DNA of 64,000 bases from an uncultured Clostridia bacterium (GTDB lineage: Bacteria; Bacillota; Clostridia; Oscillospirales; Ruminococcaceae): the NCBI GenBank assembly GCA_947625125.1, contig CANQNF010000002.1, forward strand, positions 62,001 through 126,000, written 5' to 3'. This document shows positions 7,812 to 56,079 of this stretch, piece by piece. A program made the translations under genes and the position numbers. Below the pieces are notes generated by a model that searched no databases, was not told where the DNA came from, and was given only the letters and a program-made list of their open reading frames with translations. How positions within the stretch are numbered: the first letter of the stretch is position 1; every line of letters begins with the position of its first letter.

Positions 7812-7893
7812 TCCCCCGCCCATGTTATCGCATAGGCGGGGCTATTTTATATTTCCCCGGCCCGGTCTTTTTTCAGTCCCCGGCCGGGTTTTA
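7812..7893. terminator. Double hairpin terminator between convergent ftsH and the FHA operon
   Basis: Two GC-rich hairpins in series. The first pairs CCCCGCC (about 7814-7820) with GGCGGGG (about 7835-7841). The second pairs CCCGGCC (7856-7862) with GGCCGGG (7882-7888), followed by TTTT. A poly-T tract for the opposite orientation is supplied by AAAAA before the first hairpin. It probably stops transcription from both sides. Confidence 0.75.
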
Positions 7894-7897
7894 TTCA

Positions 7898-9457
7898 TCA
7901 TTTTTTATCATAGTAGCTTATCAGCACCCTGTAGTCCGACATCCCGGCGGTGAGCTTGATGTCGGCGTCGGCGCTCAGCTTTCTCAGCTCGTCCCGTGAA
8001 AGCCTCGTGCCGTTGACGAACGTGCCGTTGGTCGAGTTTTCGTCTCTTATGTAGATCTCTCTGCCGTCGGCGCGGATGCTGCAATGCGCGCCCGAAAGCT
8101 TTGAATCCCTCTCATTCGGAACCACCGCCGCCTTTGCGGGATTTCTGCCGATGATAATGGGCTTATTCTCGTAAAGATCGAAGCTCGAAACGAGGGAATT
8201 GTTTCCTATGCTTATCAAACGGACCTGAGCGACAGGCTTGGGCGCGTTCGCTTTTCTTCTTTGCTCCTCGGCCTTTCTTTTCGCTTCCTGCTCAAGGCGC
8301 AGCTTTTCCTCCGCTTCCTTTTTGAGGCGTTCCTCCTCGGCCTGCTTCTTCTTTTTCTTATTATTTGAGATGACGACCGCCGCTATTATCGCAGCGATTA
8401 TAACGACCGCCGCAACTGCGATTATCGCTATAACGGCCGGGCTTAGGACCTCTTTTTCAACGTCGGGTTCAATATTGATTTCCTGTTCAGTATTATTTTT
8501 TACATCATCATCCTGCTCCACGACTGCTTCTTCTGGCATTGCCGCTTTTACCTCGCTGTAGGAAATATCGGCGCTGTCCTCAACGGTCACATTCCCCGTC
8601 GTGTAGGACGCTTTAAGAGCAAGGTCGTTTTTCGAGTCGGGGAGCGCAAACCCCTCAAGGCTCGCCGTCACGACGGTGCCGTTTAAAATATCATCCCAGA
8701 TACCCGAGCCTGCGTCCTCGGCGGTGATGCCGTCGATCATAGGCGCAAAGTGAAGCCCGCCGACCGAAGTCCTTGCAAAGCTTCCGAGGGCCTTGGCGCT
8801 GTCGCTGTATTCCGAGCCGTAGTTATTCGGCATGACCGCTACGGTGTAGATGGGCACCCTTGAATCCTCGATTGCGCTGTTTACCTCGCTCTCGGTGATG
8901 CCCGCCTTGTAATAGTCGTTGCCGTCCGAAAGAATTACCAGGCAGCATTTTTCGTTCATGGTCGAGTCGGTCCGAAGTATCTTCAGCGAGTCGACGATGC
9001 CTGCATAAAGATTTGTGTTATAGTTACCGTGCTCAAGGCTGTTTATGGCTTCGCTTCTTTCATCGGCAGTCGTGAGGACTTCGCCCTTGGAGCTGCTGTT
9101 CCCGAGTGCGGATATCACCATGCCGTCTCCCTCGCGCATAAGATCGCTTATTTTTTGGAGCACCTGCTTTTCCTGCTCCATCATCGAATCGGAGATGGAG
9201 TTTGAAACGTCGGCCAGGCAGTAGACCGTAACGGGCGTGCCGCTTTCGCCGATAGACGATATTTCGGCGGGCAGGGGAGTCCCGTCGAGAGTGACGGCGG
9301 CCTCTCCGTAGTCGAGAGCCGAGCAGATAATTTTAACGCTGCCGTCGGCGGCGCTCACGCTCTGAATAAATCTTGAGGCGGAAAGGCAGACTGCGCTTAT
9401 CGTGACCGAAGCCGCCAATCCCAATGAAATTAAAATTGATGAAAGTTTTTTAAGCAT
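7898..9457 (-). CDS. Membrane VWA domain protein with cytosolic C-terminal FHA domain
   Basis: About 519 residues. A signal peptide or N-terminal anchor (about 1-37) precedes a von Willebrand A domain with a canonical MIDAS start DVSNS (DxSxS) near residue 80 and SDGND later, so metal-dependent ligand binding outside the cell is likely. An acidic linker leads to one transmembrane helix (about 340-362), then a charged Lys/Glu/Arg coiled coil (about 365-405) and a C-terminal FHA domain (IIGRNP, SGAHCSI, ENSTNGTFVNG). The start ATG at 9457 has GGAGG seven bases upstream; an open frame continues to 9550 but overlaps the phosphatase gene. Last gene of the operon, two bases after the PP2C stop. The ligand is unknown. 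Confidence 0.85.
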   Translation of the reverse strand: MLKKLSSILISLGLAASVTISAVCLSASRFIQSVSAADGSVKIICSALDYGEAAVTLDGTPLPAEISSIGESGTPVTVYCLADVSNSISDSMMEQEKQVLQKISDLMREGDGMVISALGNSSSKGEVLTTADERSEAINSLEHGNYNTNLYAGIVDSLKILRTDSTMNEKCCLVILSDGNDYYKAGITESEVNSAIEDSRVPIYTVAVMPNNYGSEYSDSAKALGSFARTSVGGLHFAPMIDGITAEDAGSGIWDDILNGTVVTASLEGFALPDSKNDLALKASYTTGNVTVEDSADISYSEVKAAMPEEAVVEQDDDVKNNTEQEINIEPDVEKEVLSPAVIAIIAVAAVVIIAAIIAAVVISNNKKKKKQAEEERLKKEAEEKLRLEQEAKRKAEEQRRKANAPKPVAQVRLISIGNNSLVSSFDLYENKPIIIGRNPAKAAVVPNERDSKLSGAHCSIRADGREIYIRDENSTNGTFVNGTRLSRDELRKLSADADIKLTAGMSDYRVLISYYDKK

Positions 9458-9459
9458 TG

Positions 9460-10182
9460 CTATACCTCCGCAAAGACAGCTATCGCCGTATTGTTGTCGC
9501 GCTCGGAAAAATTCTTTTTTTCCGCTCTTATCACAAGGTTCTCCACCCAATCCTTTGGCGTTGGGGATTTGTTATAGTCAAGAGCTATCTCATCGTCGCT
9601 CAGACGCTCCCAGAGCCCGTCGGTGCAGAGTAAAAACGCATGCAGTCCCTTTTCAAGGACTATTTCGCCGGAATAATCCGGCCTGCATTCCGAGTCACCG
9701 AGCACCCTCAGCACCCTGCTCCTGTCGGGAAATGTAGGTATCTGATCCCTCGTTATCTCCCCGAGCTGGACCTGTATCTGAGCCACGCTATGGTCCTTGG
9801 TAAAGTGAATAAGCCTGTTTTCATAAAAATGATACAGCCTCGAATCGCCTATGTGCGCCCACTTGGCACGGTTTCCGGCGGCATAAAGCGCGACCGCCGT
9901 GCTTTTCATCTGACTTTCGCTCTCACGAACCGCCGCTATCTCGCTGTTTGCGGCTTCCATCGCTTTTAGAATACGCTCATCCCCCGGCAGGTTTTTGCCG
10001 TCCCAAAATCCCATGAGATGCTTAACGGCGATATTTGCGGCTTCCCGTCCGCCCTTGTGACCGCCGAGGCCGTCGGCGATAACTGCGCTGAAAGCGTCAT
10101 GCTCATACGCCCTCACAGCCTCGTCGTCCTGGTTTTCGGGCCGCGTACCGATATTAGTGTACTGAAAAAATTCCGTTTTCAT
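9460..10182 (-). CDS. Soluble PP2C-family Ser/Thr protein phosphatase
   Basis: Cytosolic PPM-type phosphatase, 240 residues. Metal-coordinating and structural motifs are intact: RPENQDD near 15, VIADGLGGHKGG near 35, HIGDSRLYHF near 110, LLCTDGLWE near 190 and ERDNNTAI near 227. It would remove phosphate from Ser/Thr substrates of the adjacent kinase. The ATG at 10182 is preceded by AGGGGAT; a TTG at 10197 would overlap the kinase end and is less likely. It starts directly after the kinase stop and ends two bases before the VWA gene, so these three form a tight writer-eraser-reader unit. Confidence 0.9.
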   Translation of the reverse strand: MKTEFFQYTNIGTRPENQDDEAVRAYEHDAFSAVIADGLGGHKGGREAANIAVKHLMGFWDGKNLPGDERILKAMEAANSEIAAVRESESQMKSTAVALYAAGNRAKWAHIGDSRLYHFYENRLIHFTKDHSVAQIQVQLGEITRDQIPTFPDRSRVLRVLGDSECRPDYSGEIVLEKGLHAFLLCTDGLWERLSDDEIALDYNKSPTPKDWVENLVIRAEKKNFSERDNNTAIAVFAEV

Positions 10183-10183
10183 T

Positions 10184-11485
10184 TTATCCCCTGACAACAG
10201 TAAATTCCTCCGTCCGGGCGAGAATTACTCTCTGACCCGGCTGGATGGTATACCATGCTCCGCTGTTAAGCTTCATGCATTCAAGCGCCGAACCGTTTCT
10301 TGACGACTCGTCGCGAATATGTATCTTCCCGTCGCGGGTAATAGATACCGTCATATGCACCGTGCTCACGGTGTTGCAGGTGCCGGGAAATTTCACATTG
10401 CACTTAGGTCCTCTGCCGAGTATTACGGTGCAGTTCTCCGGCAAGGAAACCGATTTTCCTTTCATCTGCCCCTTGGTAAACATGATCTTCCATGCGGATT
10501 TCGGGTCGGGCTCCGTCCCTCGGGACTTCTTCAAAAGCGCCTTTTTTAAATCAGAGGCGTTTTTATACCGTCCGTCTATATCCATCGCCATGCCCTTGTG
10601 TATCGCCGCCACGAAGCTGTCCGGCAGCCCCGGGCAGAGCTTATTGAGCGGAATCGGCACGGCTCCGAGCTTTCTGTCGCAGGCGCTCGGCGGTTTTTTC
10701 CCGGTCATGCAGTAATACACCGTAACGCATAGCGAATAAATATCCGTCCACGGACCGAGCTCTCCGTCGGTTATATACTGCTCATACGGAGCAAACCCCT
10801 CGGTCGCGTATCTTGAGTAGCTTCTGTCCCGGTTGTAGGTTCTTGCCGAGCCGAAGTCTATAAGCCTCGGGCTGCCGTCTTGGGTAATAAAAATATTTGC
10901 GGGCTTTATATCGCGGTGGACCATGTTTTTGCTGTGCACTATCTCGAGCGCGTCGAGTATCGGCATGATTATCGGCATGATTTTATTATAGCTCAGCCTG
11001 CCGTTTTTCACGACGACATGCTGCAAATCGCTTCCCTCCAAAAACTCCATCACATAATAGACGGTGTTATTTTCAGAAAACGTATTGTAGACCGAGACGA
11101 TATTCGGCTGGCCGACAAGCTTTGCAAGCATGCTTGCCTCCTCCGTGAATCTTCGGGATATATGCTTAAAATACTCCTCCTGGTCGGGGTCGGGTCTTAC
11201 GGTGAGCTTGTCCTGCGTCCGTGAGAATCCCCGGTCGGGGAAAAGTTCTTTTATAGCCACTCTTTCGGAGAGCTGGACGTCCCGTGCGGCATAGGTTATC
11301 CCGAATCCGCCGGAACCCAAAACGTCGCCGACGACGTACCTGCCGCCGTAAAGTCTCGCGCCCCTGGGCAGAGCCGAGGCGTTTCTGTTCTCCTCGCCCT
11401 TTGCGTGGCAGGACGTGCAGACGCCGTTTTCAATATATCCGGAAAAGCATCTTCCGCAAATGGTTTTAGTTGAGACAGCACTCAT
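10184..11485 (-). CDS. Ser/Thr protein kinase with N-terminal zinc ribbon and C-terminal FHA domain
   Basis: Soluble Hanks-type kinase of about 433 residues with no transmembrane segment. An N-terminal CxxC...CxxC ribbon (about 10-25) precedes the kinase: glycine loop GSGGFGITY near 57, VAIKELFPD lysine near 75, catalytic loop VHRDIKPANIFI near 188 and DFG in LIDFGSAR near 208. The last 100 residues form an FHA domain (ILGRGP, VSTVHMTVSI, DESSRNGS). All catalytic residues are present. The ATG at 11485 has AAAGGA about ten bases upstream; the frame extends further upstream without a ribosome binding site. A kinase with its own phosphothreonine reader suggests it is recruited to phosphorylated partners. 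Confidence 0.92.
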   Translation of the reverse strand: MSAVSTKTICGRCFSGYIENGVCTSCHAKGEENRNASALPRGARLYGGRYVVGDVLGSGGFGITYAARDVQLSERVAIKELFPDRGFSRTQDKLTVRPDPDQEEYFKHISRRFTEEASMLAKLVGQPNIVSVYNTFSENNTVYYVMEFLEGSDLQHVVVKNGRLSYNKIMPIIMPILDALEIVHSKNMVHRDIKPANIFITQDGSPRLIDFGSARTYNRDRSYSRYATEGFAPYEQYITDGELGPWTDIYSLCVTVYYCMTGKKPPSACDRKLGAVPIPLNKLCPGLPDSFVAAIHKGMAMDIDGRYKNASDLKKALLKKSRGTEPDPKSAWKIMFTKGQMKGKSVSLPENCTVILGRGPKCNVKFPGTCNTVSTVHMTVSITRDGKIHIRDESSRNGSALECMKLNSGAWYTIQPGQRVILARTEEFTVVRG

Positions 11486-11587
11486 GTTCCAAAGGTCCTT
11501 TTTAAAGCCTTTCGGCATATTTTTGGCAAAGGCCGCGCTTTGATGTAAGCGGCGACCTTGCACAAACAAATGAAATTAAGTTAATAT

Positions 11588-12985
11588 TCAGTATCCTATG
11601 AGCATAGCGGTGAAGTTGTCCTGAGCGGGGTCGTGCAGGTTGGCGACATACTCCTCAAGCCTTTCGGCAGCCGTATTAAGGTCGGGCGAGGAGTCTATAA
11701 TAGAAGCTATCACCGTTTCGGGAGTGCGGTTGAACACTCCGTCGCTTAAAAGAAGTATCACATCCCCCTGCCTGAGCTCGGTCTTTCTCACCGACCCGTC
11801 GATGTGCTTTAACCTGCCCATGCCGATAAAGCTTGTGAGCCTCTTTCTCTGGGGGTCGTTTTTAACTTCCTCGATGGTCATTTCGCCGTTCATAAACTTC
11901 TCCATCAGCTCGCTTTCAAGGATATGCTCCCGGTTGAGCTGTATAAGGCTTCCGCCGCGGTAGAGATATATCCTGCTGTCACCGACGGATATCCAGTGAA
12001 ATTCTTTATTCCGAACAAGCGCCGCCACGACGGTCGAGCCGCTCTTATACAGCCCGGATTCTCCGAGCTGGACGTTCACGACTTCGTTCGCGTTTTTGAG
12101 CAGGGGAGTGAGATGATTGCTCTCCATCCCCGCGGGCAGGGCATTTGCGCTCGAAAGCATGGTTTTTACGATGGTCTGGCTGACCTGTTCTCCGCCCGAA
12201 AGACCGCCCATGCCGTCCGCGACGATTGCAAGAACGCCCTTGCCTCCGTCCAAAGGAACCGACCCGAGGCAGTCCTGCTGACTGCTTCTCATGCCTATGT
12301 TGTGAAGCTTTGCGACCTTTATCTCATCGGAATGTTCGTCTTTTATATCGGCATTATGCTTCACGCCGTCGGTCTTATCGGCCTTGTCGGAGCCGTGCTT
12401 TTTGCCTGCGGCATTTTTAATTATCACGGCGACAACTGCGGCAATAATTACGACAGCAAGTATTACCGCCGCGATTATCAGCCCGACGTGAGAAGATTCA
12501 TGGCCGGTTATTTTGCCATCGCTTCCCTCAGAATCACCAGACGACAACGTCATCTCGGTCTCCGAAGATATGCCGGTCTCGTCCTCCGCGACCGTGGTAA
12601 CAGCGGCTATAACGACTTCGGTCGTCGCCTCGGTAACGGTCTCTTCGGTTGTAGTCACTTCGGCAGCAGTCGTCGCTTCCGCAGTTTCTTCGGCAGTCGT
12701 CGAAGCCTCGGTTTCATCTGTCGCGGTTTCTTCCGTGCCGGTGCTCTCAGCTGTAGTCGCTTCGGTCGTGGTAGTTACTTCCGGCTCATCCTGCTCGGCA
12801 GCCGTCGTCACGGTGTCGTCTGCCCCGTCCAAGTTTGCGGGTATGCCTCCGCCCAAAATATCGTCGCCGCCGTTTTGAAGCGCCATCTCATTCACATCCG
12901 CATACGCCGTAGAAAGCGCCATGGACAGGACTGTCAGCGCCGTGAAAAACACCTGAAAAAACCTTTTCATTCCTTTTCTTACCAT
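11588..12985 (-). CDS. Membrane-anchored PP2C phosphatase with Thr/Glu/Ala-rich outside linker
   Basis: About 465 residues. An N-terminal signal segment (about 7-29) is followed by about 130 residues of low-complexity Thr, Glu and Ala, a transmembrane helix (about 168-192) and a cytosolic PP2C domain with intact motifs: SSQQDCLG, IVADGMGGLSGG, SVGDSRIYLYR, LLLSDGVFN and AQDNFTAM. The outside portion may be a wall-spanning or glycosylated stalk; no folded ectodomain is recognisable. The start at 12985 overlaps the FHA gene stop; an ATG at 12970 is an alternative. It lies 102 bases upstream of the kinase gene. A second PP2C in the same operon, now at the membrane, implies site-specific dephosphorylation. 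Confidence 0.87.
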   Translation of the reverse strand: MVRKGMKRFFQVFFTALTVLSMALSTAYADVNEMALQNGGDDILGGGIPANLDGADDTVTTAAEQDEPEVTTTTEATTAESTGTEETATDETEASTTAEETAEATTAAEVTTTEETVTEATTEVVIAAVTTVAEDETGISSETEMTLSSGDSEGSDGKITGHESSHVGLIIAAVILAVVIIAAVVAVIIKNAAGKKHGSDKADKTDGVKHNADIKDEHSDEIKVAKLHNIGMRSSQQDCLGSVPLDGGKGVLAIVADGMGGLSGGEQVSQTIVKTMLSSANALPAGMESNHLTPLLKNANEVVNVQLGESGLYKSGSTVVAALVRNKEFHWISVGDSRIYLYRGGSLIQLNREHILESELMEKFMNGEMTIEEVKNDPQRKRLTSFIGMGRLKHIDGSVRKTELRQGDVILLLSDGVFNRTPETVIASIIDSSPDLNTAAERLEEYVANLHDPAQDNFTAMLIGY

Positions 12986-13614
12986 CTGAATTTATCCGAG
13001 CAGAACGGGACAAAGAGGAACTTTGAGTTTCCGAGCTTTATGCTGTCATAGGGACTGAGGTCGACGGCGGAATACTGGGCCTTGCCGTTTACGCGGCAGG
13101 TATTCGTTCCCTCGGACGGTCCGAAAGCAAAGGTATCGCTAAGTCCGTCCTCGCTCTTGTCATATGCTATCCAAGCCTGCTTGGCGCTGATAGTCGCGTC
13201 GTTGGGAATATAGATATCCCTGTCCGGAGTGCGGCCGATATAGTTGTAGCCGGGATGAATCGGATAGCCCACACCTCTGTTCGGACCCTCGATGCATACG
13301 AGCCAGCCGACAACGGGGCGGAAAGTGAAATCGCCGGTAGAAGCGCCAATGCTCCCGAGGGAGACGGGTTCGGTCTTGCCGACCATTTCAAAATCTCCGC
13401 CGGAGACGGGCTCGGTCTTTCCGTATATATCGAATTCCTGATTTACCGGCGTGGTGTTGTCGGAGCCGGTGAAAGAGCTCTGGTCTACAGGCTGGGTCTT
13501 GCCGACGCTTTCAAATACGGCTCCTCCCGCAGTTGCTCCGTCGTTTGTGCAGAACGGGCAGGAGGACAGGCTTGCGTCATATGCGTGGCCGTTTTCACAG
13601 GTTTTCAGTTCCAT
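12979..13614 (-). CDS. Soluble FHA protein with zinc ribbon and repeated GKTxPV motifs
   Basis: 211 residues. A Cys/His N-terminus (CENGHAYDASLSSCPFC) resembles a zinc ribbon. Residues of about 35-85 contain GKTQPV, GKTEPV and GKTEPV plus a related TTPVNQ, each spaced by 15-20 residues. The C-terminal FHA domain keeps IGR and the Asn turn (GTNTCRVNG), but the usual SxxH is ISAKQ, lacking the His. The layout recalls actinobacterial GarA-type switches (N-terminal phospho-Thr plus FHA), so the Thr residues may be kinase targets; that is inference. It follows the protease gene by 25 bases with an AGGAG-type ribosome binding site, inside the same operon. Confidence 0.85.
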   Translation of the reverse strand: MELKTCENGHAYDASLSSCPFCTNDGATAGGAVFESVGKTQPVDQSSFTGSDNTTPVNQEFDIYGKTEPVSGGDFEMVGKTEPVSLGSIGASTGDFTFRPVVGWLVCIEGPNRGVGYPIHPGYNYIGRTPDRDIYIPNDATISAKQAWIAYDKSEDGLSDTFAFGPSEGTNTCRVNGKAQYSAVDLSPYDSIKLGNSKFLFVPFCSDKFRW

Positions 13615-13639
13615 GGTAATTTCTCCTTTTCAAATATGT

Positions 13640-14971
13640 TTAATTTATTATGAACTCGCGCGAATCGTCGGCGATCTGGATTTTATCGCCTTTGTTGAGC
13701 GCGGTTTCAACATCCGGTTCGAGGCGCTTCCCGTTCACGAAAGTGCCGTATGAAGAATTGAGGTCGGTGACGGTAACGCAGCCGTTCTTCCACTGCAATC
13801 TGCAATGTATGCGGCTGACTCCCTTGGCGTCGCCCGCGAACTGCACGCCGCATCCGTCCGCTCTGCCGATCAAAAGAGGGGAGGAGGTAATAGGCGTTGA
13901 AAGCCCTTTCAGCTCGCCCGAAACGCAGGTGAGCTTTGCCTTTTCTATGGGCTGCTTCCTGCCCTTAAGAACGGCTATAGCTGCGACTGCGGCGATTATT
14001 ATGATAATAACTGCGCATACAGCGATTACTGCCGCAGTCGAGGATTTTTTCTCACCCTCCCAATGTATCCCGAGATCGTCAAGGAAACTCTCGGCATACT
14101 CGACGTATAAGGAATACTGGAAAGCAGGGTCTTCAACGCTTCCGTATGTGTTTATTCCGACGACGCAGCCGTTTTCATCGATGAGCGGGCCGCCGGAATT
14201 TCCGTGATTGATGTGCGAGGAGTGGACTATAACGCTCGTGTCGCCGAAACTCTTAAAGGTCGTCAGCTTGTTCACGGTGCCCCTTGTCAAGGACATCTCG
14301 TCCAAGGATGCGCTCCAGACCTCGGTCATAACGGTCATCTCCCTGCCGTTAACGACTCTTGTTTCTATCGAGGCCTGGGTCTCGTCGGCTGACCCGGGGT
14401 ACCCGAGAGCAAATACCGTCTGGCCTTTTTTGAGATCCTCGGCATTCCCGAGCGGCAGGGCGGTTATCCCCGAAATAGTCTTTTCGGCCTGAATGATCGC
14501 CAGGTCGGGATATTCGTCCGAGGTCTTTAAGACCTTGCATTTTACAAGCGTGCTGTTGTCGATGTTCATCTTGGCGTCGCACTGCAATAGGTCGCCCTCT
14601 TTGAACGCCTCCTGACCGACATAATCGTTTGCCTGAGCGGCCTCATCCGCGGTCAGGGTTATGTAATAGTTTTCAATTACCAACGAATCGTTCGAGAGCA
14701 TAATATATACCTCGTCCGATACGGTGTTGTCGCTTTTCATCACGACATGGCGGTTGGTGACGAATATATCCGATTCCTGACCCGGAACTCCCACCGCGAA
14801 CCCCGACCCGGTAGCGACCGAGCCGTCGTCCTTGCGGAGAACTCTTACGACGGCATTCTGAGCCTCATAGGCGTTATCCTCGGGAGTCTCGCCGCAGGAG
14901 CAAAATCCCAGGCAGGTAAACAAAAGGACCGCGGAAATCAGCAAAGAGAATAAAGCTTTTTTAGAATTCAC
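13640..14971 (-). CDS. Membrane trypsin-like (HtrA-type) serine protease with cytosolic FHA domain
   Basis: About 443 residues. An N-terminal signal/lipoprotein-like segment ends in FCSCGE (lipobox uncertain). The S1C-type protease domain has His in VTNRHVVM, Asp in YPDLAIIQ and Ser in HGNSGGPL, so the triad is complete. There is no PDZ domain: after the protease comes a transmembrane helix (about 290-315) and a C-terminal FHA domain (LIGRADGC, VSRIHCRL, LNSSYGTFVNG). The GTG at 14971 is ten bases after the upstream stop with GAGGTGAG as ribosome binding site; the longer frame to 15130 has no sensible start. The topology suggests a protease outside the cell coupled to a phospho-reader inside. 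I know of no characterised protein of this build. Confidence 0.88.
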   Translation of the reverse strand: MNSKKALFSLLISAVLLFTCLGFCSCGETPEDNAYEAQNAVVRVLRKDDGSVATGSGFAVGVPGQESDIFVTNRHVVMKSDNTVSDEVYIMLSNDSLVIENYYITLTADEAAQANDYVGQEAFKEGDLLQCDAKMNIDNSTLVKCKVLKTSDEYPDLAIIQAEKTISGITALPLGNAEDLKKGQTVFALGYPGSADETQASIETRVVNGREMTVMTEVWSASLDEMSLTRGTVNKLTTFKSFGDTSVIVHSSHINHGNSGGPLIDENGCVVGINTYGSVEDPAFQYSLYVEYAESFLDDLGIHWEGEKKSSTAAVIAVCAVIIIIIAAVAAIAVLKGRKQPIEKAKLTCVSGELKGLSTPITSSPLLIGRADGCGVQFAGDAKGVSRIHCRLQWKNGCVTVTDLNSSYGTFVNGKRLEPDVETALNKGDKIQIADDSREFIIN

Positions 14972-14981
14972 CCGTCTCACC

Positions 14982-16355
14982 TCATTCAAACGTAAGCACG
15001 AACGCGTTGTCGTGAACGCCGACGTAGAATTTGTCTCCCGCCTTGAGGGGTTCGGCGGACTGAGGCGTAAGCTTTGAATACATGCCGTTCTTTTTGATAT
15101 AGGTGCCGTTGGTGGAGTCGTTGTCGACAAGCACCAGCCCGCCGTTTCTCATAAGTATCGAGCAGTGGTGCTTACTTACCCGGGTCTCGTCCTCGGGATA
15201 GTGTATGTAGCAGTCGCTTGAGCGGCCGATGGTGACTATATTTTTGGAGAGGTCTCCGTCGAGGCGGTATTTCTGGCCTCCGAGGGCTCCGCCCACGCCA
15301 GTAAGAACGGGAATAACGCTCTTTTGCTCATCATCCGCACGCTCTGTGCCGTCGGTTTGGTCTATCGGCTGAGTGGGACCGTATTCGTCTATGCCCACCC
15401 CGCCGGTCTTCTTTTTGTTATTGTAGATGACGACGATAAGGATAACCGCGACTATAGCGACTGCGGCAATGCATCCGAGCACGATAAGCGGGATTTTTAT
15501 GGTGTCAAAGAACGATTTTTCCGCAACGACATGCTCTCTGCCGGGATTTTCGGCAGTAGCGGGAATATCCTCGGCCTCGTCGTCGCCGCTGTCTATGTTC
15601 TCGACAGGCTCATCCGAATCGTCCGCGTCGTCGGTCGCAGCGGCTACGGGAGTCTCCGTATCGAAAGTGATATGAGTAAATATATCGGCGGTTGGGCCTA
15701 AAAATCCCAAAAGCTCGTCGTCATCGTTCATTATAAACGCCGGCACCATCATGTTATCTGAGGTGGCAGTGTCGAGGTCTTCCACAACGGTGTAGTCGTA
15801 AATATCATATCCGTCGGCGACGGTGCGCTCTCCTATAGTAACAATTCCGTTATCATAGCCGAATTTGCACTGCAAAATGTTCTCGGCATCGGTGGTATCG
15901 GCTAAGTAGAGCAGAACGACGTTGACGTCATCGCCGACCTCGGGGGCGGAGCACTCATAGAAATAGTCGAGCATTTCCGGCATAGGCGAGTAGTCGATCT
16001 CCACAACAAAGATCTGGATATCCTCAAAGGCAGCTATTATCGTTCCGGTGTATAATGTGCCGTAGAGGATAACGCCGTAATCATACGCGTCCTCATACCC
16101 GTCGACCATCATTATATCCGCATAAAGATGCTCTCCGTCTCTCCATACGGCCGCGGTCGATAAAAACAGAGTATTCTCATCTTCATCAAATCCCGCTGCG
16201 ATAGTGAGCGAGGCAAGCTGGTCTGCGGTCATTATCTCGTCGTCCGCAAATACGTTCACCCCGAGCACGGAAAGCGCCAAAATAAGCGCTATCAGAGCGG
16301 CTGCGGTTTTTTTGATAATCCCCGTCGAAGAGGCGCCGTGTTTTGAATGTGCCAT
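14982..16355 (-). CDS. Membrane protein with unknown ectodomain and cytosolic FHA domain
   Basis: About 457 residues. A signal peptide (about 14-36) precedes an ectodomain of about 210 residues that I do not recognise, rich in Asp, Tyr and Val, then an acidic linker (about 245-285), a transmembrane helix (about 295-320) and a juxtamembrane stretch containing YGPTQPIDQT. A clear FHA domain follows (TIGRSSDC, VSKHHCSIL, DNDSTNGTYI). The start ATG at 16355 has GGGAG upstream; upstream in-frame codons lack one. First gene of the seven-gene operon. The YGPTQPI motif matches the GKTxPV repeats of the FHA protein two genes on. Confidence 0.82.
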   Translation of the reverse strand: MAHSKHGASSTGIIKKTAAALIALILALSVLGVNVFADDEIMTADQLASLTIAAGFDEDENTLFLSTAAVWRDGEHLYADIMMVDGYEDAYDYGVILYGTLYTGTIIAAFEDIQIFVVEIDYSPMPEMLDYFYECSAPEVGDDVNVVLLYLADTTDAENILQCKFGYDNGIVTIGERTVADGYDIYDYTVVEDLDTATSDNMMVPAFIMNDDDELLGFLGPTADIFTHITFDTETPVAAATDDADDSDEPVENIDSGDDEAEDIPATAENPGREHVVAEKSFFDTIKIPLIVLGCIAAVAIVAVILIVVIYNNKKKTGGVGIDEYGPTQPIDQTDGTERADDEQKSVIPVLTGVGGALGGQKYRLDGDLSKNIVTIGRSSDCYIHYPEDETRVSKHHCSILMRNGGLVLVDNDSTNGTYIKKNGMYSKLTPQSAEPLKAGDKFYVGVHDNAFVLTFE

Positions 16356-16472
16356 AATTTCCATCTCCCGTAAAGTTTTCGTGCATAATATGCATAATAT
16401 TAAATAAGCGAAAGGCCCGAAATAATTAAAAGTCTTAATTACAGTCCTTTCGCCGTCCATTTAATCTATTAT

Positions 16473-16501
16473 ATAATAACATAGTATCTTGTGAATGTCA
16501 A
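16473..16501 (-). promoter_or_regulatory. Sigma-A-like promoter of the FHA operon
   Basis: On the - strand, TTGACA (16496-16501) lies 17 bases from TATTAT (16473-16478). It is the only good promoter upstream of the first FHA gene and leaves a leader of about 110 bases. Within the leader GCGAAAGG and CCTTTCGC form an eight-base inverted repeat enclosing AATTAA/TTAATT. Confidence 0.75.
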
Positions 16502-16598
16502 CAGGTTTTTTCATCCGTTCAGTGGCATTTTGTATATATTGACAATGCGGTGTCTGTAATATTGTCGAATTATGTATGTTTTGACTTTTAAATGTTTA

Positions 16599-16627
16599 TT
16601 GACTAATAATGCTGTAAATGTTATAAT
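16599..16627 (+). promoter_or_regulatory. Sigma-A-like promoter of the BspA-ectodomain kinase
   Basis: TTGACT (16599-16604), 17-base spacer, TATAAT (16622-16627), followed by about 55 bases of leader to the ATG at 16688. It is back to back with the FHA operon promoter, 97 bases away, so both transcription units could be co-regulated from this gap. Confidence 0.75.
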
Positions 16628-16687
16628 TGATATGATTATTAAAATGGAGAAAGTATGTAAAAGCAAAACTTTGAAACGGAGCATTCT

Positions 16688-19639
16688 ATGAACCACGACG
16701 CCACTGAAACAATTTATCGCTGCGTGCACTGTATGGGCAAGCTTGACAGGGACGGTCTTAAGGTCTGCCCATATTGCGGCAGGAACCCCGACCCCGCCTT
16801 TTTGGAGCAGGCTTCTTATTGCATGCGCCCCATGACGATATTGAGGGGGAGATATCTTGTCGGCAAGAGCCTCGGGCACGGCGGATTCGGCATCACATAT
16901 ATCGGCCTTGATTTAAGCCTCGACATCAGGGTCGCCGTCAAGGAATGTTTCCCCGACTCTCTCGTCACCAGGGATTCAAACGACTCAAACACCGTTCGTT
17001 GGAGCACCAGCCTGTCCGGCGTCAATACTTCGGAGCAGAACTGCGAGAGCTTCTTGCGGGAAGCCAGGAAAATGGCGAGGATAAAGGATATAAGCGGCGT
17101 TGTGCGAGTGCTTGAGACGTTTGTCGAGAATAACACCGCCTACATAATCATGGACTTCGTCGACGGCATGACCGTAAAGGATATGCTCTACCGTGACGGA
17201 AAAATGACCCCGACGGAGTGCGTAGAATTCTACCGCCCCATCATGCATGCCCTCTCTGAGGTCCATAAGTTAGGCTTTATACACCGCGACATCAGCCCCG
17301 ACAATATAATGATAGACTCCGACGGCAAATTAAAGATTTTGGATCTCGGAGCAGCCAAGGACCTCACCGGCAATATCGGCGGACCGAGCATGAACACCAA
17401 CGCCGTTATAAGGACCGGCTTCAGTCCGATAGAGCAGTATTCCTCAAACGCCGGCAATATCGGCGCATGGACCGACGTCTACGCCCTTGCGGCTACTATG
17501 TATTATTCCATGACCGGAAAGCGCGTTGCCGATTCTTTGGACAGGATAAACGGCGCTCCCATTGATTTTGATTCCAAGCTTTTCCGGGAGCCACCCTCGG
17601 AGACTCTTATAAACGCCCTGAAAAACGGCCTTGAGATAAGGTCCGGCGACCGCACGCAGTCGATGGCGGAATTTGAAGCGAGCTTTGAAGATAAGAAGCC
17701 GGAGCATAAAAAAAGAAAGTCCAAGGCTAAGCCAGACCGCAAGGCAAAGACAAAAGTCAAGCCCGAGCAGAAGTCCGACCCGGTTCAGGTATCAAAGTCC
17801 GAGGCCAAGACCGAGCCGGTGTATCGTTCTATGTCCGGGCTTAAGCCCATGCCCGAGCCCGAAATAAAGCTCGAACCCGAGATAAAACCCGAGTCGGTGC
17901 AGGAGATAACCCCCGAACCCGAGCAGGAAAAAGCCCCCGAACCCGAGGTCATTTCCGAGCCCGAGCATGAGCCCGAAAACGCCGAAATAAAGGAGACGGT
18001 CGGCGGCAAAAAGTTCTCCCCGAAAGTGCGAAACGCTCTGATAGCGTCTTCTATTGCGGCATTGTTTGTTTTATGCGCAGTCGTCGGCGTAACGTTCGGA
18101 AAGAATAAAATAGGTTTAAGAGCAAACGGCGACAACGGGGGGACCGAAAAGAGCAGTCTTTACTCCAAGCGCCTGACGGAATCCGAGGAAGTCGTTCCCG
18201 TTTCCGAGGACAACTTCTTAACGACAAAGCGCGAGACCGACGAGGACGGCAAAAAATTATCTCCCATCCACGAATTCTCCGACGTTTCAAAGGTTTCGTT
18301 CAGGACTAACCTTATCAACGCTCCCGACGACGCCAAGGACCTTTCGGACAACGGCAGCGGGGGAGTAAAGGCATGGAGAGAGGGATACGAGCTTATCATC
18401 GCCGCAAATGGCAAGGTCTGCGGAAGAGACCTGTCATATCTTTTTGACGGCTTTTCAAATATGACAGAGGTCGACCTCAGCGGGCTCGACACCTCCCAGG
18501 CCACCGATATGACGTCGATGTTCAGCAACTGCTCATCCGTCACATGGCTTGACGTAAGCGATTTCAATACCTCAAAGGTCACGAGCATGAGTTCAATGTT
18601 CTATAAATGCTCGGCGCTTGATTCTATAAACGTTCGCAGTTTTGACACCTCAAACGTCACCAGCATGTACTGCATGTTTTATAAGTGCTACGAGCTGAAC
18701 AGGCTCTCCCTCAGCAAATTTGACACCCATAACGTGACGAATATGGCGTATATGTTCGCGGAGTGCACGTTCACAAGCCTTGACGTCAGCAGCTTCGACA
18801 CCTCCAATGTGACGGATATGTACTGCATGTTCTATAAGTGCACCGGGCTTAAAAACCTTGACGTTTCGGGATTTGATACGTCAAAAGTCACCAAGATGGG
18901 CTGGATGTTCGGGGGATGCAGTTCTCTTGAAAAGCTTGATTTAAGCGGCTTTATATTCACAAACGTCGCCGAGATGGGCAATTTTACGCGTGACTGTCCC
19001 GCAGAAATAAATTATTTAAAGGACTCCTCGACCGGCAGCGAATACACTCCCGACCCAAGCGCGTACAGCCTGAGCGTTTCCTTTGACGATAGCGGAATAG
19101 TCACGTTAAGATGGCTGAGCACCAACGCCGAGGAATACTATATTTACGTCGCGGAATACGGGGACGGCAAGTATATGCTCCGCACCAAGGGCGTCCCGAG
19201 CAAGAGCCTTTCTGAGGATGAGGACGCATACTTTTCACATCCTCTGAGCGGACTTGAGAACGGAAAATATTATTCCGTGTTCATCTCGGACGGCAAGACC
19301 GTTTCGGGAAAAACTCTTTGGTTCTCAAGAAATCAGGCTCTTGTGTCAGACCCTGTAAACGCCGTTACATATAATCGCGTCCAGGGCGTGAACGGCAATA
19401 TTTATGTTTCATGGCAGCCTATCGAGGGAGCAGGAAGCTACAAGGTGTTCATCCGCAGCGCGGGCGACGACGGCTTCCTCTCCGAAAAAACCATGAAAAC
19501 GACCTCCTCAAACATGCTTCTTGCAGGCCTTGAGCCGGGCGAGTATGAGATAAGAGTCGGCGCCTATTCCGACCGGACATGGCGCAAAGAGATTGTCTCG
19601 GAGCTCTCCGGCGAAGCTATGAAAGTAGTGATAAGATAA
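16688..19639 (+). CDS. Transmembrane Ser/Thr kinase with BspA-type repeats and fibronectin III ectodomain
   Basis: 983 residues. An N-terminal zinc ribbon (CVHC...CPYC, 12-30) precedes an intact kinase: GHGGFGITY near 63, VAVKECFPD near 83, FIHRDISPDNIMI near 200 and LDLGAAKD (DLG for DFG) near 218. A Lys-rich then Pro/Glu-rich linker (about 335-440) leads to a transmembrane helix (about 447-468). Outside are about seven BspA/DUF285 repeats (FDTSNVTxMxxMF pattern, about 590-765) and two fibronectin III-like domains (about 787-983). It looks like a receptor kinase whose outside part binds a protein or surface ligand. Transcribed divergently from the FHA operon; it probably writes the marks those FHA domains read (inference). 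Confidence 0.92.
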   Translation: MNHDATETIYRCVHCMGKLDRDGLKVCPYCGRNPDPAFLEQASYCMRPMTILRGRYLVGKSLGHGGFGITYIGLDLSLDIRVAVKECFPDSLVTRDSNDSNTVRWSTSLSGVNTSEQNCESFLREARKMARIKDISGVVRVLETFVENNTAYIIMDFVDGMTVKDMLYRDGKMTPTECVEFYRPIMHALSEVHKLGFIHRDISPDNIMIDSDGKLKILDLGAAKDLTGNIGGPSMNTNAVIRTGFSPIEQYSSNAGNIGAWTDVYALAATMYYSMTGKRVADSLDRINGAPIDFDSKLFREPPSETLINALKNGLEIRSGDRTQSMAEFEASFEDKKPEHKKRKSKAKPDRKAKTKVKPEQKSDPVQVSKSEAKTEPVYRSMSGLKPMPEPEIKLEPEIKPESVQEITPEPEQEKAPEPEVISEPEHEPENAEIKETVGGKKFSPKVRNALIASSIAALFVLCAVVGVTFGKNKIGLRANGDNGGTEKSSLYSKRLTESEEVVPVSEDNFLTTKRETDEDGKKLSPIHEFSDVSKVSFRTNLINAPDDAKDLSDNGSGGVKAWREGYELIIAANGKVCGRDLSYLFDGFSNMTEVDLSGLDTSQATDMTSMFSNCSSVTWLDVSDFNTSKVTSMSSMFYKCSALDSINVRSFDTSNVTSMYCMFYKCYELNRLSLSKFDTHNVTNMAYMFAECTFTSLDVSSFDTSNVTDMYCMFYKCTGLKNLDVSGFDTSKVTKMGWMFGGCSSLEKLDLSGFIFTNVAEMGNFTRDCPAEINYLKDSSTGSEYTPDPSAYSLSVSFDDSGIVTLRWLSTNAEEYYIYVAEYGDGKYMLRTKGVPSKSLSEDEDAYFSHPLSGLENGKYYSVFISDGKTVSGKTLWFSRNQALVSDPVNAVTYNRVQGVNGNIYVSWQPIEGAGSYKVFIRSAGDDGFLSEKTMKTTSSNMLLAGLEPGEYEIRVGAYSDRTWRKEIVSELSGEAMKVVIR

Positions 19640-19814: not shown

Positions 19815-20043
19815 CAAGCCCTTTTCAAAGGGCTTGCAGGGTCAAGGGGCAGAGCCCCTTGTCGCAGCCCGCAGGCTGCGAAATTTTTTACACGAAGGCG
19901 CTCCGCAAGGGGTGAATTGAAAAAATAGCCCGGTGGGCTATTTTTTCAAGAGGGGACGCCCTGCAAGTGAGGGCGTCCCCTTGTGATACGCAGCTCCGAC
20001 AGGAGCTGCGAACCTTTAATCATCAAACCATGAATTATTATAA
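19815..20043. repeat. Hairpin-train intergenic repeat, copy A
   Basis: Serial perfect hairpins: CAAGCCCTTT/AAAGGGCTTG (19815-19836), AAGGGGC/GCCCCTT (19844-19860), CGCAGCC/GGCTGCG (19863-19880), a 15-bp stem with loop GGT (19917-19949), GGGGACGCCC/GGGCGTCCCC (19952-19980) and CGCAGCTCC/GGAGCTGCG (19989-20010). About 35 bases of AT-rich tail follow. About 140 bases are nearly identical to copy B at 25.4-25.6 kb. No protein is encoded. Confidence 0.85.
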
Positions 20044-42834: not shown

Positions 42835-42884
42835 ATAGTGAGATAATTATGCGAGCATATTCTCTGAAAGGGGAAATTTATATC

Positions 42885-44669
42885 ATGAGCGATCACAAGA
42901 CCCTTTGCATGGGCTGTATGGAGCCTCTTGAGCAGGCCGGGGTCTGCCCCTATTGCGGGTACGACGACGGCACGCCTGCCGAGTCGGGCTACTTAAGGCC
43001 CAAGACTGTCTTAGACGGCAAATACATCGTCGGCAAGCTCCTCCGTAAAAACGGGGAGTCCGCCCTGTATATCGGCTACGACAGCCAGACAGAGCAAAAG
43101 GTTTACGTTAAGGAGTATATGCCTGACGCCATATGCACAAGAGACGGCGAGACCCAGGAGATAAAGGTTTACCCCAACGCCAACGTCCAGTATAAAAACT
43201 ATATGTCCGAGTTTATCGAACTCAATAAGGACCTCCAGCGCCTGCGCACCATGTCTCACATCGTCGCGCCTATAGATATGTTTTCCCAGAACGGCACCGC
43301 GTACGTCATCATGAAGTACACCGAGCACCAGACTCTCAAGGAATATCTTGCAGATAACGCGGGGGAGCTTACCTGGGACCAGGTCAAAAAGCTCTTTCCT
43401 CCGCTTCTCACAACTCTCAGCTGCATACATAACGCGGGTCTTTTGCACCGCGGTATCAGCCTTGAGAACATTCTTGTCACGGACGGCGGCGAACTTTTGC
43501 TGACAGGCTTTTCCATAGCGGCCGTCAGGACCGTGAATACCGACCTTGCTCCCGAGCTTTACACCGGCTACTCTGCGCCCGAACAGTATTCCGCTTCGGA
43601 ATGGATAGGCACCTGGACCGACGTATACGCAGTAGCGGCGGTAATGTACCGTCTTCTGACAGGCTGCATGCCGACCGAGCCTATGGCAAGAGTCGGAAAC
43701 GACGACCTTTTGGAGCCTGCCAAAATAAATTATAATGTTCCGGCAAATGTTTCAAAGGTCATCATGCAGGCCATGCGCCTTAACTGTGACCAGAGAATAA
43801 GGACCGTCACCGATTTTGTCACCAAGCTTTTCGAGCAGCCGAGCTATATGCAGAAGCTGCCGAACGGCTCCACCCAGACAATCCCGATACAGGTCCCGAA
43901 GCTTGAGCCGGAGCGTAAAGTCAAGAAAAAGAAAAACCGCAGGCGCGCCCAGGCTATAGCCAACGGATTCATGATCTTAGGAGCGCTTATCTTAGTGGCG
44001 ATAGTGATAGCTGCGTTTGTCATGCTCGCAAGGATGCTTTTGCCCGATTCGGGCAGCGTTCTTCCCGGAGCGGTCACTACCACGGCCTACACTCCGCCTG
44101 TTGTAAACACCGCCGCCACCACCGAGCCGGCTGCCCCGACCACGGCTTCCGAAACGACTCCGAGCGAGACTGCTCCTCCCGAAACAACGGCCGCCACCAA
44201 GAGCGGAGTGCTCTTTGCGATGCCGGACCTTTTGGGCAAGAGATACGACAGCGTCGTCGGAAATTCGGTATGGCAGGGGAAGTTGGAACTTGAGCCGACA
44301 TACGATTATTCCGAGGAATATGAAAACGGCGTTATTTATGAGCAGGACATCGAAAAGGGCACCGAGCTCCAGGGTCTTACAAAGGTCAAGGTCAAGGTGT
44401 CCAAGGGTCTTGAAGTCGTGAAGATACCCGATTTCATGCGCGAGGACGGCACCCGTATGACGAAAGAGGAGTACGCGGCCGAGCTTGATAAGCTGAATAT
44501 CAAGTATGAGTATTCCACTCAGGACAGCTTTGAGGCGTCCGACCTTGTTTTGGGAGTATACTGTTCCGAGACCGGCGGAGAGGTAGGCGGAGACATAAAC
44601 GTCGCCGATGGCAACACTCTTATGGTTTACATCTCCAACTTCAACCCCCTTATGGACGCAGCAGGCTGA
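42885..44669 (+). CDS. Transmembrane pseudokinase with zinc ribbon and PASTA domains
   Basis: About 594 residues. A zinc ribbon (CMGC...CPYC, 8-28) and a kinase-fold domain paralogous to the kinase at 16.7 kb are seen, but catalytic sites are lost: the glycine loop reads LLRKNGESALYIG, the catalytic loop is LHRGISLENI (Asp to Gly, near 190) and DFG is replaced by GFS in LTGFSIA (near 209). The VAIK-type Lys survives (VYVKEYMPD). A transmembrane helix (about 358-386), a Thr/Pro/Ala linker and two PASTA domains (about 441-590) outside follow. PASTA domains bind peptidoglycan. It probably acts as a sensor or scaffold rather than an enzyme. The ATG at 42885 follows AAAGGGG. Confidence 0.88.
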   Translation: MSDHKTLCMGCMEPLEQAGVCPYCGYDDGTPAESGYLRPKTVLDGKYIVGKLLRKNGESALYIGYDSQTEQKVYVKEYMPDAICTRDGETQEIKVYPNANVQYKNYMSEFIELNKDLQRLRTMSHIVAPIDMFSQNGTAYVIMKYTEHQTLKEYLADNAGELTWDQVKKLFPPLLTTLSCIHNAGLLHRGISLENILVTDGGELLLTGFSIAAVRTVNTDLAPELYTGYSAPEQYSASEWIGTWTDVYAVAAVMYRLLTGCMPTEPMARVGNDDLLEPAKINYNVPANVSKVIMQAMRLNCDQRIRTVTDFVTKLFEQPSYMQKLPNGSTQTIPIQVPKLEPERKVKKKKNRRRAQAIANGFMILGALILVAIVIAAFVMLARMLLPDSGSVLPGAVTTTAYTPPVVNTAATTEPAAPTTASETTPSETAPPETTAATKSGVLFAMPDLLGKRYDSVVGNSVWQGKLELEPTYDYSEEYENGVIYEQDIEKGTELQGLTKVKVKVSKGLEVVKIPDFMREDGTRMTKEEYAAELDKLNIKYEYSTQDSFEASDLVLGVYCSETGGEVGGDINVADGNTLMVYISNFNPLMDAAG

Positions 44670-54795: not shown

Positions 54796-56079
54796 TCACA
54801 TCGGCGAACCCGAACCGAATCCCGGCCACATGTAGTAGGGGTATTCGTCCTGCTCATCCTCGGTCTCGTCGTCATCCGGTTCCGAAAGCGCGGACTGCTT
54901 TCTTACCTTGACGGTCACTTCAAGCTCCAGCGTTTCTCCCTGACGTGTGACGGTCAGCGTAAGCTTGTCGCCGTCCTTGCATTTCAGGACTTTTGAGGTC
55001 AGGTCGCTGTTTTCCTCAATTTTTTCGCCGTTTACAGCCGTGATAATATCGTCGGCCTTAAGTCCGGCTTTTTCGGCAGGGGAGTCCTCCTCTACGCTCT
55101 GGACTACCACGCCCGAGAGCCCGAAGCGCTGATACTCGCTGCCGAGGGTCGATATAGTCACGCCTATATAGGGCTTTTCGACTGTCCCGTCGGTGATTAT
55201 CCCGGTGATTATATCCTTGACGCTGTCTATCGGGATTGCGAAGCCGATGTTATCAATTGACGCTTCGCCCATCGAGCTGCTTGAAAGCTTAGCGTTTGTA
55301 ACTCCCACGACCTCGCCGTACATATTAAACAGCGGTCCTCCGGAGTTTCCGGCATTGATGGCGCAGTCTGTCTGGATAAGATTCATAGATTTGCCCTCGA
55401 TGGTAACGCTTCTGTCAAGAGCGCTGATAATTCCGCTTGTTAAAGAAAACGTCAGCTCTCCCAAGGGGTTGCCTATTGCACAGACGTAATCGCCGACCAC
55501 GGATTCCTCCGAGCTTCCGAGCACCACCGGCGTAAGTCCGTCGGCGTCGATTTTTATGACGGCGATGTCGTTCTCTTCATCATATCCGACGATTTTTGCA
55601 GGATAGCTCTTGCCGTCGTATGTCGTGACCTCGACCGAGTTTGCGCTGTCGATGACGTGGAAGTTGGTGACGATATAGCCGTCATCGGTGAGTATGAATC
55701 CCGAGCCGGAGGCAGGAGAAGTCGTGCGGTAGCCGAAGAAATTAGTGTTCACGGTTGTCGTGATACCGACGGTCGAGCCTACGTTTTTGGCATATACTTC
55801 GGCCGGGGTAAGCTCTTTTCCGCCGTCAACATAAGAAACGTTCAGTGCGGGAGCCTCTCTCGTGCTCTCAAACACCGTCGCCAGACCACCATCGCTGATT
55901 TTAGCGGCTTTGGTCAGGGCGAACGTCCCGCCTGCGCCGATAGCTCCTCCTAAAAGCGAGCAGCAAAGCGCGAGGGCCACGAATTTCCCGGCGCCCGATT
56001 TTTTGGGCTTAGAGGGCTCATATCCCTGCTGATAGGGGTTGTTTCCGCAATTTTGGTAATTCTGATAATTTTCGTACAT
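54796..56079 (-). CDS. htrA: HtrA/DegP-like serine protease with PDZ domain
   Basis: About 427 residues. A Tyr/Asn/Gln-rich cytosolic N-terminus (YENYQNYQNCG), one transmembrane helix (about 33-58), then the S1C protease with His in VTNFHVIDS, Asp in NDIAVIKID and Ser in AGNSGGPLF, followed by one PDZ domain (GVVVQSVEEDSPAEKAGLKADD) and an acidic C-terminus. Surface quality-control protease. The ATG at 56079 has AAAGGAG eight bases upstream. In contrast to the FHA-linked protease at 13.6-15.0 kb, this is the standard build. Confidence 0.94.
   Translation of the reverse strand: MYENYQNYQNCGNNPYQQGYEPSKPKKSGAGKFVALALCCSLLGGAIGAGGTFALTKAAKISDGGLATVFESTREAPALNVSYVDGGKELTPAEVYAKNVGSTVGITTTVNTNFFGYRTTSPASGSGFILTDDGYIVTNFHVIDSANSVEVTTYDGKSYPAKIVGYDEENDIAVIKIDADGLTPVVLGSSEESVVGDYVCAIGNPLGELTFSLTSGIISALDRSVTIEGKSMNLIQTDCAINAGNSGGPLFNMYGEVVGVTNAKLSSSSMGEASIDNIGFAIPIDSVKDIITGIITDGTVEKPYIGVTISTLGSEYQRFGLSGVVVQSVEEDSPAEKAGLKADDIITAVNGEKIEENSDLTSKVLKCKDGDKLTLTVTRQGETLELEVTVKVRKQSALSEPDDDETEDEQDEYPYYMWPGFGSGSPM

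Follow-up and report, generated by a model that had tools for sequence, protein, structure and literature searches.

Gene organization of the locus

Within the window (the whole stretch of 64,000 nucleotides that was analysed), seven consecutive minus-strand genes, A to G, adjoin one divergent gene, H; on this our open reading frames agree with a first-pass annotation of the same DNA. In the feature list below, a signal-like N-terminus means a hydrophobic start, and transmembrane (TM) segments were called by a simple hydropathy scan.

A, 7898..9457, minus strand: signal-like N-terminus, VWA (MIDAS DVSNS), TM, basic linker, FHA; 519 aa
B, 9460..10182, minus strand: soluble PP2C phosphatase; 240 aa
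C, 10184..11485, minus strand: zinc-ribbon-like N-terminus, Ser/Thr kinase, FHA, without TM; 433 aa
D, 11588..12985, minus strand: signal-like N-terminus (by eye), Thr/Glu-rich stretch, TM, PP2C; 465 aa
E, 12979..13614, minus strand: zinc ribbon, linker (GKTQPV, DNTTPV, GKTEPV, GKTEPV), atypical FHA; 211 aa
F, 13640..14971, minus strand: signal-like N-terminus, HtrA-like trypsin (H-D-S), TM, FHA; 443 aa
G, 14982..16364, minus strand: signal-like N-terminus, ectodomain, TM, GPTQPI motif, canonical FHA; 460 aa
H, 16688..19639, plus strand: zinc-ribbon-like N-terminus, Ser/Thr kinase, AKTEPV linker, TM, DUF285/PARCEL repeats, weak fn3; 983 aa
Promoter-like site of the A-G operon, 16473..16501, minus strand: TTGACA-17-TATTAT, TG before the -10, 11/12; consensus match only
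Promoter-like site of H, 16599..16627, plus strand: TTGACT-17-TATAAT, TG before the -10; consensus match only
Terminator-like hairpin after A, 7814..7841, minus strand: 11 pairs, T-rich tail; consensus match only
Terminator-like hairpin after H, 19862..19881, plus strand; consensus match only

The likelier starts, picked by eye from the upstream sequence, are ATG 9457 (A), ATG 10182 (B), ATG 11485 (C), GTG 14971 (F) and ATG 16364 or 16355 (G). With these revised starts the intergenic spacings from A to G are 2, 1, 102 (C-D), -7, 25 and 10 bases. The operon had earlier been described by spacings of 2-25 bases and gene overlaps; the overlap is there (-7), but the spacing range fails at the 102-base D-C gap, the sole loose join among the minus-strand genes. 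A consensus scan gave further, weaker promoter-like matches inside the A-G operon. The ORFs flanking A to H resemble, by eye, tilS, hpt, ftsH and an Rrf2-type regulator.

Domains and functional residues

All five FHA domains named previously exceed the Pfam gathering score of 20.7, with bit scores of 50.6 (A), 27.3 (C), 23.2 (E), 64.8 (F) and 49.4 (G). A plain FHA search of the genome (3.17 Mb) gave 6 matches, four of them within this 8.5 kb; it did not pick up E, which lies outside those 6. The first-pass annotation had raised the possibility that these domains lack the residues that bind phosphothreonine (pThr), and in our alignment the phosphate-contacting Arg and Ser are retained in five of five. 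In A, C and G the domain preserves His and Asn-Gly too. That of F reads Ser-Tyr-Gly-Thr, with Tyr replacing the usual Asn, and that of E is atypical, without His and without the usual loop; because of these departures, pThr binding is not required of every FHA domain.

The enzymes came out largely as first described. Catalytic K, D and D align in both the FHA-linked kinase C and the receptor kinase H, which are two of the 6 kinases over the cut-off in this genome, and the DUF285 repeats of H were matched in the Pfam scan. B and D, a soluble and a membrane phosphatase, both match PP2C. The trypsin-like protease F matches Trypsin_2 and shares the H-D-S triad with DegS/HtrA; the nearest known structures of its catalytic domain are HtrA-type proteases. 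Unlike DegS/HtrA it gave no C-terminal PDZ match in the Pfam scan, TM and FHA taking its place. No PrsW match was found in the operon by Pfam scan. The VWA assignment of A is less clear-cut: the Pfam scores lie slightly below the cut-offs (23.5 versus 23.8 for VWA, 24 versus 27 for VWA_2), whereas the D-x-S-x-S MIDAS motif (DVSNS) and the occurrence of relatives in similar cassettes speak for it. The predicted topologies of A, F and G agree with the earlier placement of a C-terminal cytosolic FHA domain on three membrane proteins.

Conservation of the cassette

Within the family (Ruminococcaceae), E matches occur in 37 of 297 genomes, our own included, and spread over 23 of 126 genera; none was found in the 4 other genomes of the same genus that were searched. 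When the site was compared across the genus, ftsH was present in all four congeners; the downstream genes differ in the three that can be read, and in the fourth the contig ends. The 36 other E-positive genomes gave 39 neighbourhoods (three genomes gave two), some of them cut by contig ends, which were scored with profiles grown from the window domains and a few locus-derived ones. PP2C genes were present in 37 of these 39 loci, kinases in 32, protease-FHA in 24, VWA-FHA in 5, EssC in 4 and WXG100 in 5. An order often met is E, PP2C, protease-TM-FHA, PP2C, kinase(s).

Scanning named genomes with the E alignment yielded at least 593 stretches, at least 552 of them confirmed, and the best 80 E loci were kept. 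By record labels these belong to Bacillota (49), Pseudomonadota (19), Synergistota (4), Thermodesulfobacteriota (3), Myxococcota (2), Rhodothermota (1) and Acidobacteriota (1), seven phyla overall, with one unassigned; single labels may be wrong, since many of the genomes are MAGs. Cultured carriers among them include Priestia abyssalis, Methylomonas lenta (L135) and Thiohalocapsa marina, and there is a complete Roseithermus chromosome. The locus of Priestia abyssalis DSM 25875 (L099) is compact and consists of PP2C, protease-FHA, PP2C, kinase and E. At least two of the 80 (L088 and L101) look like copies of family loci (L040 and L045). PP2C was found in 76 of the 80 loci, kinase in 70, protease-FHA in 38, VWA-FHA in 37, one or the other of these two in 62 and both in 13; kinase-FHA occurs in 12 and a PP2C-protease fusion in 3. 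The 18 loci without protease-FHA and VWA-FHA include some that are cut by contig ends. At least one further FHA protein is encoded in 74 loci, and 6 show only one FHA protein. Across the 44 of these loci that are at least 20 kb long, kinase, PP2C, FHA, protease and VWA genes become rarer farther from E.

The window's order E-D-C-B-A, then a kinase, recurs in L084 and L090, both from Lachnospiraceae, where five of five ordered genes match the window at 29-42% identity in the aligned parts; L083 has the same domain order, the best BLAST match of C there being a different kinase. A search of the phylum matched the E profile at 0.001 in 142 of 398 genomes, with most matches spanning the FHA part only, and at E < 1e-50 in 17 of 398 among the matches listed. 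A tree of E (96 rows) was poorly resolved, with 17 of 88 branches starred; on it, protease presence and VWA presence each require at least 16 changes. Conservation of the neighbourhood in relatives, which had been put forward as a check on the original description, is thus found across the family and far beyond, and the zinc-ribbon FHA protein E is the marker of a widespread cassette rather than a local curiosity.

Variable effectors and sensors

Among the proteins listed from cassettes we scanned 41 of 72 other TM-FHA proteins and 60 of 120 kinase ectodomains. The former included PrsW (8), RDD (5), ABC transporters (3), peptidase M48 (2) and Big_2 (2), and FHA-FHA-ABC proteins are present inside cassettes of the same kind. 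The kinase ectodomains matched PASTA (9), LRR_8 (8), DUF5050 (6), TPR_19 (6) and FGE-sulfatase (4), a variety that, as expected, fits sensors. Since both effectors and ectodomains vary, sensors and effectors change while E, PP2C and kinase mostly persist.

The H-D-S triad is present in 62 of 70 aligned trypsin domains, and four of the other 8 are gapped at a triad position; by eye, 43 of 44 VWA rows carry D-x-S-x-[ST]. Two trypsin-TM-FHA homologues have lost their catalytic residues: the triad positions read D-N-E at 7611-9206 of L122, a plain homologue, and gap-G-E at 7636-9201 of L155. Three loci (L116, L147 and L158) encode PP2C, trypsin-like and FHA domains in one chain with one or more TMs between.

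Five TM-FHA ectodomains (L090, L104, L106, L111 and L146) resemble, by eye, a degenerate HtrA. Profile-profile comparison of this family with the trypsin set was collinear, at E 0.0014 and a probability of only 18%, and in leave-out runs the best match outside the family was a cassette trypsin in three of five cases (1.3e-5 at best). Among the Foldseek matches listed, 46 of 50 were named Deg/HtrA, from a weak model (pLDDT 50, TM ~0.33, none at E <= 0.001). An ordinary trypsin-profile search scored no better than shuffles, and a PDB search with the five-ectodomain family returned ribosomal L18 only (E 0.3 or worse). Only L111 of the five was recovered at a significant E-value in the leave-out runs, so the family is itself loose. 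The ectodomain in some Lachnospiraceae cassettes may therefore have a degenerate HtrA fold. For G of the window, the idea of a dead protease was dropped and the ectodomain left unassigned: the profile of the five ectodomains misses it, masked BLAST aligns the FHA tail only, and BLAST with the ectodomain only gives one match, to L111, at E 0.002 and out of register. Folded alone, G gave a poor model (pLDDT 39), and a model of the pseudo-HtrA family that included G matched only its own genome out of 398 in the phylum.

Threonine motifs in the E linker

In 21 aligned E proteins an invariant C/H/C/C zinc ribbon is followed by a linker and then the FHA domain. The linkers vary in length and composition yet repeat a Thr motif of about G-K/R-T-x-A/P-V/I/L, often directly ahead of the FHA domain. 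In the window, the linker of E contains GKTQPV and DNTTPV once each and GKTEPV twice; G and H carry GPTQPI and AKTEPV in their own linkers. FHA domains favour pThr with a hydrophobic residue or Asp at +3.

When counted as T.[PAG][VIL], the motif occurred 43 times in 36 family E linkers against 8.1 in shuffled linkers (maximum 18 of 1000 shuffles) and was present in 21 of the 36, a count that omits 5 family proteins outside the first linker pattern. With the pattern fixed beforehand, 54 distinct linkers of the wider set (best 80 E loci) gave 101 against 15.5 (maximum 26 of 500 shuffles), 45 of them carrying at least one motif and 29 at least two. The first linker pattern missed 23 of the best 80 loci; one is cut by a contig end, and the other 22, counted apart, gave 29 against 6.1 (maximum 14), with the motif present in 20. 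When each of the 19 FHA clusters formed at 60% identity was represented by a single linker, the count was 23 against 4.7 (maximum 16 of 1000), in 12 of 19. The Ser version was not enriched in any of these sets: 10 versus 10.5 and 4 versus 10.8 in the first two, 1 versus 3.7 in the 22 further linkers, and 6 versus 5.7 with one linker per cluster. Linkers devoid of the motif number 15 of 36 in the family, 9 of 54 in the wider set and 2 of 22 in the further set, T7SS-type loci included.

The reversed pattern [VIL][PAG].T was enriched in the family set (20 versus 8.9, maximum 19) and in the wider set (58 versus 15.2), and was not enriched in the 22 further linkers (10 versus 6.1, maximum 14). As only 23 of 60 reversed matches share their Thr with a forward match, the consensus extends past the +3 residue alone. 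The enriched positions around the Thr are G at -2, K/R at -1, V/M at +1, A/P at +2 and, most at +3, L.

Linkers of other proteins in the same loci showed at most about a twofold enrichment: 14 versus 6.8 for VWA, 14 versus 6.8 for protease, 4 versus 2.6 for PP2C, 1 versus 2.5 for kinase-FHA, 17 versus 8.7 for other TM-FHA proteins (a group that includes at least one E protein, from L038) and 32 versus 18.2 (maximum 31) for kinases. The kinase group alone passes 500 shuffles, by one, implying that the motif reaches to some degree beyond E. The repeated, apparently Thr-specific motif of the E linkers is new here.

Comparison with known systems

The ArnA-ArnB pair of Sulfolobus acidocaldarius likewise has a zinc-finger-FHA protein working with a VWA partner, and it too involves Ser/Thr kinases and binding that depends on phosphorylation (excerpts of PMC6509490). 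ArnA is the best solved match of the FHA domain of A, and when architectures are compared the zinc finger and FHA protein with a VWA partner corresponds to E and A here, VWA-FHA being found in 37 of the best 80 E loci. ArnA and ArnB control archaellum expression, and to our knowledge archaella are not expected in Bacillota. The Arn system is archaeal and, in the same excerpts, is without a protease and has its phosphosites on the VWA protein (PMC6509490), whereas here the Thr repeats lie on the zinc-ribbon FHA protein; the window VWA protein also differs in bearing a TM and its own FHA domain.

The nearest solved relatives of the E profile are GarA and OdhI of actinobacteria, whose FHA sequence is related to that of E (7rj3 at E 1.5e-7). 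Both are small FHA proteins controlled by phosphorylation ahead of the FHA domain, and they regulate 2-oxoglutarate metabolism; we know of no zinc ribbon and no repeated motif in them. Elsewhere, the T6SS threonine phosphorylation pathway has PpkA, PppA and Fha beside T6SS structural genes, and the mycobacterial pknA/B-pstP-fhaA/B operon groups kinases, PP2C and FHA proteins with cell-shape and division genes. Rv1747-type proteins are FHA-FHA-ABC transporters; such proteins occur in related cassettes and none is encoded in the window operon.

Parts of such cassettes are already in print, going by excerpts of the sources: T7SSc-j with genes for kinases, PPM phosphatases and FHA proteins (PMC11217815), and PrsW-FHA fusions (PMC3482391). 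As here, the T7SSc-j loci encode kinase-TM and FHA proteins side by side with a PPM phosphatase (excerpts of PMC11217815), and the words trypsin and zinc are absent from the main text of that paper. Fusions of PrsW to FHA and Zn-ribbon domains were proposed in 2012 as likely signalling peptidases, with no cassette or scaffold of the window kind in the text examined (PMC3482391). Kinase, PP2C and VWA genes are grouped in actinobacterial GTPase systems (excerpts of PMC7159879), and kinase architectures have been surveyed (excerpts of PMC1262709). The whole cassette, with an FHA-tailed protease and VWA protein around a zinc-ribbon FHA hub, was not recognised in the open-access literature searched, which was judged mostly by title and the opening of the abstract.

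A possible phosphothreonine relay and its alternatives

The domains, predicted topologies, compact gene set, wide conservation, intact catalytic residues and Thr repeats of E can be read directly from sequence. Given these, the operon, with related forms across several phyla, looks like a switch in which phosphates on a scaffold inside the cell would gather proteins with protease and binding parts outside. Our preferred reading, held tentatively and at slightly less than an even chance, is a transmembrane phosphothreonine relay with E as a multivalent hub for FHA-tailed membrane proteins. Receptor kinase H would sense an outside signal through its repeat ectodomain, and H together with the soluble kinase C would phosphorylate the Thr of the G-K/R-T-x-P/A-V/I/L motifs in the E linker. 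Phospho-E could then bind multivalently to the FHA tails of F, A and G and to that of kinase C, gathering these proteins beneath the membrane, and this clustering might switch or localise the extracellular protease and VWA binding. The PP2Cs B and D would dissolve the assembly and reset the system. The FHA domain of E may in addition fold back onto its own linker as in GarA/OdhI, in which case E would be both scaffold and switch. We infer linker phosphorylation by the locus kinases, FHA-tail binding and outside control. Gating of outside proteolysis or binding by phosphorylation inside becomes likelier because PP2C-protease-FHA fusions occur in 3 of the best 80 E loci and because other membrane protease classes are fused to FHA domains in these loci. 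The transmembrane interpretation in the first-pass annotation thus gains from the conservation and the FHA residues, while its gating step stays something we infer; it had overlooked the likely hub E and its Thr motifs, the breadth past Oscillospirales and the link to secretion loci.

More speculatively, and with distinctly less confidence, the cassettes may form a hitherto undescribed, phylum-crossing class of inside-out signalling in which a multi-phosphothreonine scaffold, built of zinc ribbon, repeated TxPV-like motifs and FHA domain, gathers varied FHA-tailed effectors and exchangeable receptor kinases drive it. The effectors of such a class could, in the same doubtful measure, comprise HtrA-like, PrsW and M48 proteases, VWA adhesins, ABC transporters and perhaps catalytically dead HtrA-like receptors, and the class might conceivably be a counterpart in bacteria to receptor-kinase/adaptor signalling. 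Ser/Thr kinases are widespread among bacteria, but few have known partners for pThr-binding proteins; here kinase, eraser, candidate multi-site substrate and readers are encoded together, in cultured bacteria included, and the repeated motif is simple and mutable. If the proposal is true, a bacterium can use phosphorylation inside to control proteolysis and binding outside the membrane, through one scaffold that serves interchangeable sensors and effectors. Scattered FHA fusions (PrsW, RDD, HtrA, ABC) would then fit into a single scheme, as would unexplained FHA, kinase and phosphatase genes of newer T7SS types.

Since similar cassettes occur in T7SS loci, the main rival is that E, PP2C and kinase form a general regulator of envelope machines (T7SS, pilus, ABC transporter, protease), the machine here being the protease/VWA set; what it actually regulates may be a secretion system encoded at another site of this genome. 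E with two PP2C and two kinase-TM genes adjoins WXG100-like genes in 5 of 39 family loci and EssC in 4 of 39, without the protease (L061 and L072-L074 are T7SS-type loci with E cassettes, and L056 has WXG only). In this genome, moreover, contig C1 carries an EssC/kinase/TM-FHA locus where a weak WXG100 match falls short of the cut-off, contig C2 carries an FHA/PP2C/kinase set, and the T7SSc-j loci are reported with kinases, PPM phosphatases and FHA proteins (excerpts of PMC11217815). On the other hand, a profile search found no EssC-type ATPase or WXG100 match among the window ORFs, the best 80 E loci hold a WXG match in one and EssC in none, and the protease and VWA proteins themselves bear FHA tails. 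We consider this explanation somewhat unlikely; it overlaps with the hub reading, and both could be true. It is improbable that E is instead a soluble switch like GarA/OdhI, in which the phosphorylated linker binds its own FHA domain and frees a client while the membrane FHA domains answer other phosphoproteins. Its kinship with GarA and OdhI and the position of the motif, often immediately ahead of the FHA domain, would fit such a switch, but at least two motifs are present in 29 of 54 linkers from the best 80 loci, the E protein bears a zinc ribbon and an atypical FHA domain, and 74 of these 80 loci encode a further FHA protein.

Cell-wall homeostasis of the PrkC/PrpC kind, with surface sensors and the FHA proteins as ordinary substrates, appears very unlikely: PASTA is found in 9 of the 60 related kinase ectodomains scanned, but another kinase lies beside what seems, by eye, its own PP2C on contig C35, and we know of no PrkC/PrpC locus that carries FHA-tailed proteases. 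A phage-defence or conflict system acting through phosphorylation and proteolysis is hardly to be expected, and was rejected as a candidate: PADLOC defence-kinase profiles match C and H strongly yet look like generic kinase matches, the matches of B, D and F each concern one phosphatase or protease domain, and A, E and G have no PADLOC profile match. The TerY-P triad, a cytosolic VWA protein with kinase, PP2C and Ter proteins, was rejected as well; TerD is absent from the one genome searched, our own, and the VWA domain of A, preceded by a signal-like N-terminus and followed by a TM, does not look cytosolic.

Other loci of related content

Three loci (L041, L046 and L060) have genes for an E-type FHA protein and PP2C amid a common gene set (about 730, 430, 230, 820-880 and 260 aa), with a DnaJ protein encoded there as well. 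In the L041 set, which was scanned, six genes had no Pfam match; the set is perhaps another machine under the same control. On the window's own contig (C2), about 10 kb past the window, an FHA protein, PP2C and kinase-TM are encoded consecutively (L078). The N-terminal part of this FHA protein is suggestive of DUF6382, as a candidate, and the preceding genes form a putative pilus/prepilin-peptidase set, judged on size and TM count only. L077, on contig C1, combines an EssC-like ATPase (1464 aa), kinase-TM and TM-FHA, a T7SS-type locus that has phosphothreonine components of its own. Within the window, 42849-44669 (plus strand) encodes a zinc-ribbon-like, kinase-fold TM protein with a C-terminal PASTA repeat by eye; it is a probable pseudokinase, because HRG replaces HRD and GFS replaces DFG. 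Finally, 54796-56088 (minus strand) encodes a second trypsin-like protein, without FHA.
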